Positions 41,432-45,165 of a DNA stretch of 64,000 nt are shown here, piece by piece (the first letter of the stretch is position 1; each line of letters starts with the position of its first letter). The notes below the pieces were generated by a model. It was not told the DNA's origin and did no database searches. It saw only the letters and a list, made by a program, of their open reading frames with translations. Made by a program: the position numbers and the translations under genes. The DNA comes from an uncultured SAR116 cluster alpha proteobacterium (GTDB taxonomy: Bacteria > Pseudomonadota > Alphaproteobacteria > Puniceispirillales > Marisalimonadaceae): the NCBI GenBank assembly GCA_902619615.1, contig CACNFD010000008.1, forward strand, positions 1 through 64,000, given 5' to 3'.

Positions 41432-43099
41432 TTAAATATTGATCTTATTAATTGCACTTAAGACTGCAAGTATAGGCGCAACAGTTATACTTGTATTAAT
41501 CCCACATCCATAAATTGAGTCCTTACCATCATTAATTTTAAGTTCAACGTAAGCTGAAGATTCCGCTTTGGAAGAAGCACTTCTGGTGTTTTGACTGAAG
41601 TCTTCTAATGTAAATTTCAAATCAAAATTTTCTCTCATCCCATTTACAAAAGCTGAAATTGGCCCGTTGCCTTGAGAAGAAAATTGATAAAGTTTATCGT
41701 TGAAATTAACCTTTGCGATAATTATTTCGAGATTGTCTTCTCTATTAGCGCCCTCAACTTTAAAATCAATTAATTGAAATGGTTTTTGCAGAATAAAATT
41801 CTCATTAAAAGTTCTCCATATAATGTCACTTGTAATTTCGTTACCTGTTTCATCAGCTATCTTTTGTACTTTTGAAGATAATTCAACTTCCGCTCCTTTT
41901 GGTAATCTTATTTGATAGTCTGATTCTAATAACCAAGCTGTACCTCCTTTACCTGATTGGCTATTAACGCGAATTATAGCTTCATAAGTTCTTCCAATGT
42001 CAGCTGGGTCAATTGGTAAATATGGAACAGCCCATTTTTTTGAGGGTGATTTTTCCAAATTATCCATACCTTTTCTTATTGCATCCTGATGACTTCCAGA
42101 AAAGGCTGTATGTACTAAAGAACCTGCATATGGATGCCTTTGATGAACAGGTAGTCTATTACAAAACTCAGCAGTATCAATTAGATCATTAATCTTGCTA
42201 AAGTTTATATTAGGATTAATACCTTGAGTAAATAAATTCAGTCCAAGTGTTACAAGGTCTACATTTCCAGTTCTTTCTCCATTACCAAACAAAGTTCCTT
42301 CAACTCTGTCTGCACCTGCCATTAATCCTAATTCAGTTGCAGCAATTGCAGTACCTCGATCATTATGAGGATGAAGAGATAAAATTACCCTCTTTCTATT
42401 ACTAAAATTATTTCCCATCCATTCTATTTGGTCAGCGTGAATGTTTGGAGTAGACATTTCAACAGTCGCAGGAAGGTTTATTATAACAGGTTTTTGCTCG
42501 CTTGCTTCCCAAACATCTAAAACAGACTCACAAACTTCTAATGCATATGGTAACTCTGTACCAGTAAAGCTTTCTGGAGAATATTGTAATCTAATGTTTG
42601 ACTTTTCCAATTTATATAATTGATCTGAAATTATTTTAGCCCCATCAGTTGCTATTTTTTTTACTCCGTCCATGGATTCCTTAAAAACAATTTCTCTTTG
42701 AAGGGTGCTAGTTGAATTGTAGAGGTGAATAATTGCATTTTTGCAATCTTTCAAACTTTCAATAGTTTTTTCTATTAATGGTTTTCTGGATTGAGTTAAA
42801 ACCTGAACGGTAACGTCCTTTGGAATATGATTATCAGTAATTAATTCTCTTACAAAATTAAAATCTGTTTCAGATGCAGAAGGAAAGCCAATTTCTATTT
42901 CTTTAAATCCTATTTTAACTAAATGTTTAAACATGCGCATTTTTCTGACTGAATCCATTGGTTCAATCAGAGCTTGATTGCCATCTCTTAAATCCACTGA
43001 ACACCAAATAGGTGCACTATTTATGGTTTTATTAGGCCATTTTCTATCTAGAATTTTAACAGGTGGATAAGCACTATATTTTTCATATTTATTTTTCAT
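41432..43099 (-). CDS. leuA: 2-isopropylmalate synthase (LeuA type 2)
   Basis: A 555-residue LeuA2. The catalytic TIM barrel has WCSVDLRDGNQAL (metal Asp), the HPHNDRGTA histidine motif and GTLFGNGERTGNVDLVTL. The C-terminal third carries the regulatory leucine-binding domain (YELKINDGKDSIYGCG-like region). It condenses acetyl-CoA with 2-oxoisovalerate, the first leucine-specific step. AAGG lies nine bases upstream of the ATG. A branched-chain-rich leader peptide 38 bases upstream suggests attenuation control. Confidence 0.95.
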   Translation of the reverse strand: MKNKYEKYSAYPPVKILDRKWPNKTINSAPIWCSVDLRDGNQALIEPMDSVRKMRMFKHLVKIGFKEIEIGFPSASETDFNFVRELITDNHIPKDVTVQVLTQSRKPLIEKTIESLKDCKNAIIHLYNSTSTLQREIVFKESMDGVKKIATDGAKIISDQLYKLEKSNIRLQYSPESFTGTELPYALEVCESVLDVWEASEQKPVIINLPATVEMSTPNIHADQIEWMGNNFSNRKRVILSLHPHNDRGTAIAATELGLMAGADRVEGTLFGNGERTGNVDLVTLGLNLFTQGINPNINFSKINDLIDTAEFCNRLPVHQRHPYAGSLVHTAFSGSHQDAIRKGMDNLEKSPSKKWAVPYLPIDPADIGRTYEAIIRVNSQSGKGGTAWLLESDYQIRLPKGAEVELSSKVQKIADETGNEITSDIIWRTFNENFILQKPFQLIDFKVEGANREDNLEIIIAKVNFNDKLYQFSSQGNGPISAFVNGMRENFDLKFTLEDFSQNTRSASSKAESSAYVELKINDGKDSIYGCGINTSITVAPILAVLSAINKINI

Positions 43100-43137
43100 A
43101 ATTCTTTACCTTATATTAAGTTCAAAATTTAATTTGT

Positions 43138-43230
43138 TTATTTATTAGTAATCATCCCGGACCCCTTAGAGCACGGGTTTCTTAATAAATTTAGAACCTT
43201 AATAAGAATTGAATTATAGTTTTTACACAT
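43138..43230 (-). CDS. Candidate leuA leader peptide (30 aa)
   Basis: A 30-codon ATG-TAA frame on the leuA strand, ending 38 bases before the leuA ATG. Between residues 8 and 16 it reads ILIKVLNLL, so seven of nine residues are Ile, Leu or Val, codons including CTT, CTA and two TTA. After this comes RNPCSKGSG. Such a run just ahead of leuA is the classic layout for ribosome-stalling attenuation sensing charged branched-chain tRNAs. The GC-rich segment after the run can fold two ways. Not annotated by size cut-offs; expression is unproven. Confidence 0.75.
   Translation of the reverse strand: MCKNYNSILIKVLNLLRNPCSKGSGMITNK
43156..43178 (-). promoter_or_regulatory. Alternative-fold GC segment in leuA leader
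   Basis: On the minus strand the GC-rich island ACCCG...GGGGTCCGGG offers two mutually exclusive short stems: CCCG with CGGG (plus-strand 43174-43177 with 43156-43159) or ACCC with GGGT (43175-43178 with 43161-43164). Both use the same 5' strand, as in attenuator switches. No T-run follows, so a Rho-dependent or translational mechanism is more likely than intrinsic termination. Stems are only four pairs. Confidence 0.4.
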
Positions 43231-43362
43231 AATAATATAACAATATCAACTGTATGAATATTTAGTCAAGTTATTAGAGTTTTCAATACATTTTTAATAT
43301 TGCAAAATATTTTTTTTAAAACTAATTTGCTGTATATACTTAAAAATTTTTGTGGGAAATTA

Positions 43363-45165
43363 ATGACAGATATTAATCTAATAAGAAATTTTTCTATTAT
43401 AGCTCATATTGATCACGGTAAATCAACTCTTGCTGATAGATTAATACAAGAATGCAAGGGATTAGCTGAAAGAGAGATGAAAGAGCAAGTTCTTGACAAT
43501 ATGGAAATTGAGAGGGAAAGAGGTATAACAATCAAAGCTCAGACTGTCAGGTTATTATACAAGCATACTGATAATAAAACTTACACTCTAAATTTAATGG
43601 ATACTCCAGGTCATGTAGACTTTGCATATGAAGTTTCTAGATCACTTTCTGCATGTGAGGGATCACTTCTTGTAGTAGATTCTTCACAAGGAGTTGAAGC
43701 ACAAACTTTAGCAAATGTTTATCAAGCAATAGATGTAAATCATGAAATTGTGACTGTACTTAACAAAATCGATTTACCTGCTTCTGAGCCAGATAGGATT
43801 AGAAATCAGATTGAAGATGTTATTGGCTTACCTGGAGAAGATGGGATTGAAGTGTCAGCTAAAACAGGGCAAGGTATTAAAGAAGTGTTATCTTCTTTAG
43901 TTGAAAAATTAGCTCCTCCAAAGGGTAATCCCAATGCCCCTTTGCAAGCTCTGTTAATAGATAGCTGGTATGACCCTTATTTAGGTGTGTTAACATTAGT
44001 AAGAGTTGTAAATGGAAGCTTAAAAAAAGGTCAAAAGATAAGATTTATGTCAACCAAGGTTTCTCACACTATTGAAAAACTTGGAATTTTTACCCCTAAA
44101 ATTATAAATGTTGATGAGCTAGGACCTGGAGAAATAGGTTTTATTACGGCTTCAGTTAAAACAGTAGCAGATTGTAAAGTTGGAGACACAATTACTGACG
44201 AAAGAAATCCAGTTCAAACAATGTTACCTGGTTTCAAACCTTCTGTACCAGTGGTGTTTTGTGGTTTATTCCCAATGGATAATGCTCAATTTTCTGATTT
44301 AAGAGAGGCGTTAAGTAAATTGTCTTTAAATGATGCTTCATTTAGTTTTGAAGCTGAAACTTCAGCCGCTTTGGGATTTGGCTTTAGATGTGGCTTTTTA
44401 GGCCTCTTACATATGGAAATTATAAGAGAGAGGTTATCTAGGGAGTTTAATTTAGAATTAATCTCAACAGCACCTTCAGTAGTTTATAAAGTTCATAAAA
44501 ATGATAATAGAAGTGATCTTCTGCATAATCCTGCGGATTTGCCAGATGTAAATCATATTAACTTTATAGAAGAGCCATGGATTAGAGCAACTATTCTGGT
44601 TCCAGATGAATATGTTGGATCAGTTCTGACTTTATGTACAGAAAGAAGAGGAGAGCAGATAGATCTTACCTATGCAGGAGCTAGGGCTATGGTAGTTTAT
44701 AAATTACCATTAAATGAAGTTGTATTTGATTTTTATGATAAATTAAAAAGTATGACATCAGGTTATGCTAGCTTCGACTATCAAATTGATAATTATAAAA
44801 AAGGGGATCTTGTTCGCGTATCAATTTTAGTTAATGGAGATCATGTAGATGCTCTTGCAATGATTTCACACAGAGACCAAGCTGAAACGAGGGGAAGAGC
44901 AATATGCACAAGATTAAAAGATCTTATACCAAGACAACTATTTAAGGTTGCTTTGCAAGCAGCAATTGGCGGAAAAGTTATAGCAAGAGAAACTATTTCA
45001 GCGATGAGAAAAGATGTTACTGCAAAGTGTTACGGTGGGGATATAACTCGAAAGAAGAAGCTTTTAGAAAAACAAAAAGTAGGGAAAAAAAGAATGAGAG
45101 AATTTGGAAGCGTTGAGATACCTCAAAATGCTTTTTTTGAAGCCTTAAAAATGGGTGATAAATAG
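43363..45165 (+). CDS. lepA: Elongation factor 4 (LepA)
   Basis: A 600-residue translational GTPase. G1 is [10 protein letters not shown], then MDTPGHVDF (G3) and LNKIDLP (G4), with the LepA-specific C terminus ([21 protein letters not shown]). The start is the ATG behind GGGA, giving the normal length; an in-frame TTG 21 codons earlier adds a non-conserved stretch. EF4 acts on stalled or initiating ribosomes. Confidence 0.97.

Follow-up and report, generated by a model that had tools for sequence, protein, structure and literature searches.

A candidate leucine-responsive leader peptide upstream of leuA in SAR116 alphaproteobacteria that may act on translation initiation

Introduction

How can a leucine biosynthesis gene sense its own end product if the DNA in front of it carries a leader peptide with leucine codons and a GC-rich hairpin, but no terminator? 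Leader-peptide attenuation of amino-acid genes is usually depicted as a transcription-termination switch, and the classical leu/ilv attenuators consist of a leader peptide with regulatory Leu codons and of hairpins before a leucine gene. In erm-type translational attenuation, a stalled leader ribosome frees a sequestered downstream Shine-Dalgarno (SD) sequence, and the signal is an antibiotic. The question is raised here by a window of 64,000 nucleotides (the whole stretch of DNA that was analysed) from an AT-rich SAR116 alphaproteobacterium with a genome of 2.16 Mb, in which an earlier note had pointed to a branched-chain-rich leader directly upstream of leuA.

The locus and the sample

The product of leuA is 2-isopropylmalate synthase (NF002991 and TIGR00970, both above cut-off), and lepA lies divergent from it. 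Features of the locus are collected in Table 1.

Table 1. Features of the leuA upstream region, in window coordinates
Feature	Position	Strand	Basis
-35-like hexamer TTGACT	43264..43269	-	promoter-like scan, 16-nt spacer to GATATT
-10-like hexamer GATATT	43242..43247	-	promoter-like scan; column consensus TTGATA in g1/g10
Leader ORF, 30 codons	43138..43230	-	ORF list; leader and hairpin in 41/42 family genomes
5' arm of predicted long-range helix (leader codons)	43186..43217	-	folding, duplex, RNAalifold, alignment
Sensor Leu codon 1 (CTA), putative	43192..43194	-	Leu in 29/29 via 4 codons
Sensor Leu codons 2 and 3 (TTA TTA), putative	43183..43188	-	Leu in 27/29 and 29/29
GC hairpin CCCG-U-GCUC-UAAG-GGGU-C-CGGG, coding PCSKGSG when translated	43156..43177	-	folding, alignment
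3' arm of predicted helix (leuA upstream region, SD, AU of AUG)	43098..43131	-	folding, duplex, RNAalifold, alignment
leuA Shine-Dalgarno-like AAGG	43109..43112	-	sequence; invariant in alignment A1
leuA, 2-isopropylmalate synthase	41432..43099	-	NF002991, TIGR00970 profile matches

The family sample (f1) comprised 58 genomes, with a leuA match in 43 and none in 15; since one of them (G044) holds only the 3' part of leuA, 42 family genomes have its 5' end. From 65 candidate loci, 24 duplicates and one locus lacking the element (L128) were subtracted to give 40 distinct sequences, which fall into the genera g1 (n=27), g10 (n=2), g11 (n=9) and g9 (n=2). One more locus (L171, genome G057) stands outside this set and joined only at the stage of the arm-swap test.

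Rfam searches at gathering thresholds returned two tRNAs and nothing else from the whole window, and zero matches from 12 related loci, while a permissive search of 43060-43400 gave two matches, both at chance level. By eye, the regions upstream of ilvB (best match) and trpE in the same genome contain no comparable leader or hairpin. The ilvB region (L173) has a possible in-frame ATG right behind a promoter-like site, perhaps leaderless, and the small gene preceding trpE (L176) presumably corresponds to something like trpR.

The leader frame and its predicted start

The 30-codon ATG frame claimed on the leuA strand is indeed there (MCKNYNSILIKVLNLLRNPCSKGSGMITNK), and its stop codon lies 38 nt before the leuA ATG. 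A leader ORF followed by the GC hairpin is found upstream of leuA in 41 of the 42 family genomes having the leuA 5' end, that is, in the 40 distinct sequences and in G057. The sole exception is G033 (L128/L172), which has lost the hairpin. The AT-rich sequence of its leader region gives the impression of decay or reconstruction, and a single in-frame TAA appears within its leuA match as output by the search.

If the frame were accidental, how should its start be placed relative to the hairpin? ATG and hairpin are separated by 53, 50 or 47 nt, which is phase 2 modulo 3 in each case, in 40/40 distinct sequences, and G057 shares phase 2. This constancy exceeds chance; the frame, whose conservation in relatives the earlier note had proposed as a check, is kept across changes in length.

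Where might the RNA start? The motif CTTGACT is present in 40/40 distinct relatives, a count that is not independent because C[CT]TGACT belonged to the search key, and the -10-like block TTGATA is conserved in g1 and g10. The scan yields five promoter-like sites here vs 3.2 +/- 2.0 in shuffles, so the promoter call is weak by itself. The leader ATG lies 34-40 nt past the start of CTTGACT, and the 5' end of the RNA would therefore probably fall 0-6 nt ahead of the ATG: some 3-6 nt before it in the window and about 0-1 nt in g11. With a start so near the ATG, the leader ORF would be near-leaderless.

Leucine codons under selection

Which part of the leader is kept by selection? Substitutions were counted by the Fitch method on a FastTree tree of leuA for the 29 sequences of g1 and g10. 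The synonymous bias that the earlier note had expected across the leader is absent: up to the end of the hairpin there are 25 synonymous and 96 nonsynonymous changes for a potential of 46:170, which is what an unconstrained sequence would give, and frame 0 is not better than the shifted frames (27:94 and 37:84). A different ratio is seen at the three Leu codons ahead of the hairpin, with 6 synonymous and 2 nonsynonymous changes vs 19:94 at the remaining codons (Fisher p = 0.00095, for a contrast picked once the codon table was known). Alignment columns 43-45 encode Leu in 29/29 sequences through CTA, CTT, TTA and CTC, columns 49-51 in 27/29, and columns 52-54 again in 29/29.

The run ILIKVLNLL, noted before as a possible sensor, thus survives in part. 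VLNLL is shared among relatives; ILI is nearly private to the window, as its Leu codon (CTT) is read as Leu in 3/29 close sequences, as Pro in 25 and as His in one. The g11 leaders are 14-codon peptides, for example MNLYNLSICNLLNL; they contain 3-5 Leu codons and end at a UGA immediately ahead of the hairpin. As read from these comparisons, selection preserves the leucine meaning in the leader, via synonymous changes. Ribosome sensing through leucine codons before leuA, as proposed earlier, is supported by the kept frame, by the Leu codons kept synonymously and by the upstream promoter-like hexamers. The locus also offers a case in which selection on codon meaning (Leu only) can be set apart from selection on RNA structure.

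Could the GC inverted repeat instead be a DNA operator, or some other unrelated palindrome, next to an ORF that is there by accident? The repeat is one of the region's most strongly conserved blocks, as an operator might be. Against this stand the reading phase fixed over indels, the Leu-specific codon conservation and the position of the repeat downstream of the predicted RNA start, and we regard the idea as very improbable.

The GC hairpin and its translated tail

The hairpin segment CCCGTGCTCTAAGGGGTCCGGG (43177-43156) is the sole exact CCCG-N14-CGGG in the 2.16 Mb genome. In relatives, the conserved stem reads CCCG-U-GCUC-UAAG-GAGU-C-CGGG; its positions are paired in 99.1% of alignment cells in g1 and g10 together (29 sequences) and in 100% in g11, and a G-C fourth pair in g1/g10 corresponds to U-A in g9 and g11. 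Two mutually exclusive stems had been suggested for this segment. The GC hairpin is conserved; the second stem (ACCC:GGGT) requires a base unique to the window, which by inspection carries GGGT where the remaining 28 sequences of the 29 have GAGT or GAGC. The predicted pairing that recurs in relatives joins the leader to the region of the leuA start and does not involve the second stem.

What, then, is the RNPCSKGSG tail, whose fixed look had been left unexplained? It is the in-frame reading of AGA AAC CCG UGC UCU AAG GGG UCC GGG. The leader reads through the hairpin in 28/29 g1/g10 sequences and stops ahead of the tail in 11 others (L033, nine distinct g11 sequences and G057). Of the changes in the tail codons (columns 55-81), 3 are synonymous and 26 nonsynonymous. 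Conservation of RNPCS as a peptide, which had been put forward for testing, is not borne out by this ratio or by the 11 relatives that stop earlier, and a peptide function for the tail was rejected on the same grounds. Judged from the alignment, the tail is a coding read-out of a conserved RNA hairpin, and it looks fixed because the underlying hairpin is conserved. A "conserved tail" explained as a translated hairpin is a caution for small-protein annotation.

An in-frame AUG occurs directly 3' of the hairpin in 10/29 g1/g10 sequences (window 43153-43167 (-)), and in nine of those ten it is preceded by AAGGAG or GAGGAG and 6 nt; the window has AAGGGG. This AUG could be a second, hidden start site.

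Predicted pairing between leader and leuA start

In the minimum-energy fold of the window leader, a helix flanking the hairpin joins leader codons to the sequence ahead of leuA, its SD and its AUG. This fold has an energy of -31.4 kcal/mol and a z-score of -2.36, and 2/200 shuffles were equally good. RNAalifold predicts a helix between leader and leuA start in g1 and g10 together (29 sequences) and separately in g11 (9 sequences), the sequences of the two groups differing; with all 40 aligned together it finds the GC hairpin only. In the helix predicted for the window, codons 8-10 face the SD and the conserved Leu codons face bases upstream of it; in g11 it is the Leu codons themselves that face the leuA SD. 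Helix cells are paired in 95% of cases vs 18-57% with the partner slid.

Is this complementarity more than a by-product of AT-rich sequence? Duplex energies of cognate arms were compared with dinucleotide shuffles of the leader or of the leuA side. Mean z-scores (leader/leuA side) are -2.5/-2.1 in g1 (27 sequences), -3.1/-2.7 in g10 (2), -1.5/-1.5 in g11 (9) and -0.9/-1.1 in g9 (2). When arms were swapped among 14 hand-picked representatives, cognate pairs averaged -14.28 vs -11.84 for the others, and 52/20,000 permutations were as good. Swapping inside g1 and g10 (10,623/20,000) or inside g11 (4,054/20,000) did not weaken the pairing. The leuA start of g9 forms a duplex of -16.8 with g1 leaders and of -12.2 with its own g9 leaders, so the swap signal is essentially one of g1-like vs g11-like arms. 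Covariation counts in alignments A1 and A2 gave no excess over shuffles, and the 14-representative swap test is the sole covariation-like signal obtained. Against synonymous-codon shuffles, z is negative in 40/40 sequences, with p < 0.05 in only 9.

An explanation that dispenses with the helix would be that the leader acts through ribosome occupancy or reinitiation and through transcript stability only. Such a reading fits the lack of covariation within genera, the weak result of the synonymous shuffles in g1 and the leuA start being only moderately hidden (8th in inaccessibility among 54 genes of the window); against it stand the dinucleotide-shuffle z-scores, the swap test between lineages and the helices that RNAalifold finds separately in two groups. 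We give it a small share of the probability, well above that of a DNA operator.

Does a stalled ribosome open leuA?

The preferred reading, in which pairing with the leader hides the leuA start, was put into a folding model by masking a ribosome on the last Leu codons and computing the openness of the leuA SD and start. In this model, SD openness increases from 0.12 to 0.49 in g11 and from 0.05 to 0.32-0.36 in the window; g1 opens little (SD from 0.27 to 0.34, AUG from 0.21 to 0.36), and g9 shifts the opposite way (SD from 0.50 to 0.15). Control positions of the ribosome are mixed. Modelled start-region openness in g1 is 0.46 with a ribosome on codon 2, 0.42 on the Leu codons and 0.36 for free RNA, an opening independent of whether the ribosome sits on Leu codons that suits the by-product reading above; in g11 it is 0.44 at the stop, 0.47 on the Leu codons, and 0.27 both for free RNA and on codon 2. 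With such mixed controls, the model favours "a leader ribosome opens leuA" over "a Leu stall alone opens leuA", and a Leu stall is poorly separated from other ribosome positions by folding of this kind.

How would such a system work? Transcription may begin a few bases ahead of the leader ATG, and the leader would be translated with almost no 5' untranslated region. When leucyl-tRNA is ample, ribosomes would clear the leader and the RNA would form one long imperfect hairpin, with the GC hairpin as its tip and the leader codons paired to the leuA start codon, the SD and the sequence upstream of it, as folding and comparison suggest. With its start paired in this way, leuA would be poorly initiated. 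When leucyl-tRNA is scarce, a ribosome would stall on the conserved Leu codons, which lie within the 17 nt ahead of the GC hairpin, and cover much of the 5' arm, so that the leuA start would be exposed and leuA translated. We lean, by a slight balance of probability, towards such a leucine-responsive leader-peptide attenuator of leuA, acting mainly on translation initiation.

Termination as an alternative, and leaders in other lineages

Lack of a T-run had led the earlier note to consider translational or Rho-dependent control, and this lack holds: there are zero sites for an intrinsic terminator (hairpin and U-run) in 43060-43400, and the window tail reads ATGATTACTAATAAATAA. Could transcription attenuation still be the mechanism, with the GC hairpin, or Rho after leader translation, halting RNA polymerase and a Leu-stalled ribosome preventing the stop? 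Leader, hairpin and Leu codons are the classical layout. At least five T in the 8 nt after the hairpin are found in 22/40 family sequences by T count only, without a stem condition (among them L049, L126 (g10), L040, L042-L044 and L046, and not the window), so weak termination may occur in relatives. In g1, T content in the 8 nt past the hairpin is 0.54 vs 0.39 in the rest of the UTR. On the other side, besides the missing terminator-like site, the leader is translated through the hairpin in nearly all g1/g10 sequences; an unstalled ribosome would then melt the hairpin too, which would give the wrong sign and make a pure terminator role awkward.

The sister family f2, of which 10/11 genomes were examined (G100 being without a leuA match of such type), adds to both sides. 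A hairpin CCCGG...GUCGGGA stands behind a leader bearing CGACT in 9/10 upstream regions (L014, L015, L023, L142, L144, L146, L147, L164, L168), and this CGACT is a complement of GTCG in the 3' arm of the hairpin. Like f1, f2 has a Leu-containing leader running up to or into a GC hairpin (in f2 CCCG...CGGGA) before leuA; unlike f1, its hairpin is longer and has a 3' arm matching codons of the leader (CGACU : GUCG), as is typical of a two-state design. Its leader phase is not an independent test, because leaders were sought only in phase 2. Leader and hairpin of f2 are thus likely, on their complementarity, to be a two-state switch. Energies of leader with hairpin 3' arm overlap between the families (f1 -10.7 to -2.4, f2 -10.9 to -6.6), so a competing pairing may exist in f1; against this, none of the 40 f1 leaders contains CGACT in its final 30 nt. 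Taken together, transcription attenuation of f1 leuA is a serious candidate that we nevertheless hold to be unlikely, and control of translation is most likely in preference to control by a T-run.

Neither the f2-type nor the f1-type motif was found in f3 (0/3) or f4 (0/28; 28/32 genomes were examined, leaving out G075, G076, G079 and G084, and L163 has 94 N among its 320 positions). By eye, many leuA genes in L068-L110 except L077, mostly Rhizobiales contigs, are preceded by Leu-rich leaders with a hairpin-coded tail, e.g. LLLLGLIGDRRVR, and the Rhizobiales leaders end at a GC hairpin in peptides such as GDRRVR. Again by eye, they differ from the window in the greater length of the GC hairpin and in a GGAGC/GCUCC pairing downstream. 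No family was reached in an Rfam gathering search of L069, L072, L075 and L090. Leaders of leuA were also seen by eye in L061-L063 and L077 (Granulosicoccaceae) and in L064-L066 (two Calditrichaeota and one unclassified bacterium); the last three, whose LeuA shares 53-54% identity with that of SAR116, have a CCATGG stem and then a T-run, resembling a classical terminator.

Comparison with known systems

What kind of system is this? We regard the window element as a variant of leader-peptide attenuation. With the classical leu/ilv attenuators, including the leucine leaders of Rfam, it shares a conserved Leu-codon leader ORF before a leucine biosynthesis gene; unlike them, it has neither a U-run terminator nor an Rfam match above chance in 43060-43400, and because no terminator is present there we do not class it as a classical transcription attenuator. 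The proposed model shares with erm-type attenuation a stalled leader ribosome that would expose a downstream SD, but the erm signal is an antibiotic and not amino-acid starvation. Among the matches listed in the literature, as far as titles and the first lines of abstracts tell, none describes a SAR116 leuA leader.

In Sinorhizobium meliloti, according to the parts of the reports cited, the trpL leader RNA starts at the AUG and is leaderless (PMC7298713, PMC10117765). A leaderless leader ORF in an alphaproteobacterium is common to both cases, mapped there and predicted here, while trpL differs in responding to tryptophan and in acting by transcription attenuation. For epsilonproteobacterial LeuL leaders, termination of the RNA just past the stop codon is reported in the excerpt cited (PMC3847290).

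A broader scenario, which we offer tentatively and hold less firmly than the attenuator itself, is that an amino-acid attenuator has shifted from transcription to translation within one bacterial order: the Leu-sensing codons of f1 and their neighbours would double as the strand hiding the leuA start in a near-leaderless RNA, and the two arms would have been rewired jointly between genera, with nothing but the Leu codons and the GC hairpin retained. A leucine leader found throughout a family, complementary to the leuA start and with no clear terminator, would illustrate the re-use of one and the same sensor for translational control in AT-rich marine bacteria.

In its logic, the nearest known system may be the actinobacterial LEU element, in which, as the cited portion of the original description has it, a run of Leu codons pairs with the leuA Shine-Dalgarno sequence as a base stem; a leader and stems are named there, and no terminator (PMC1262725). 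Both elements, likened here by description, have a Leu-codon leader ORF directly ahead of leuA. For the SAR116 element, pairing of leader codons with the leuA SD region is a prediction in g1/g10 and g11, with a positive swap test between lineages, no covariation within genera and a poor result in g9. They differ in that the LEU element has a pseudoknot or alternative hairpin, whereas the SAR116 element has a single GC hairpin as its tip. Published mutations in the LEU element were reported to misfit classical attenuation, and the authors, in the same portion of text, favoured a protein-binding site (Seliverstov et al. 2005, PMC1262725), whereas in the SAR116 element the Leu codons appear to be under selection. 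If the shift to translation is real, the SAR116 element would be a convergent counterpart of the actinobacterial one.
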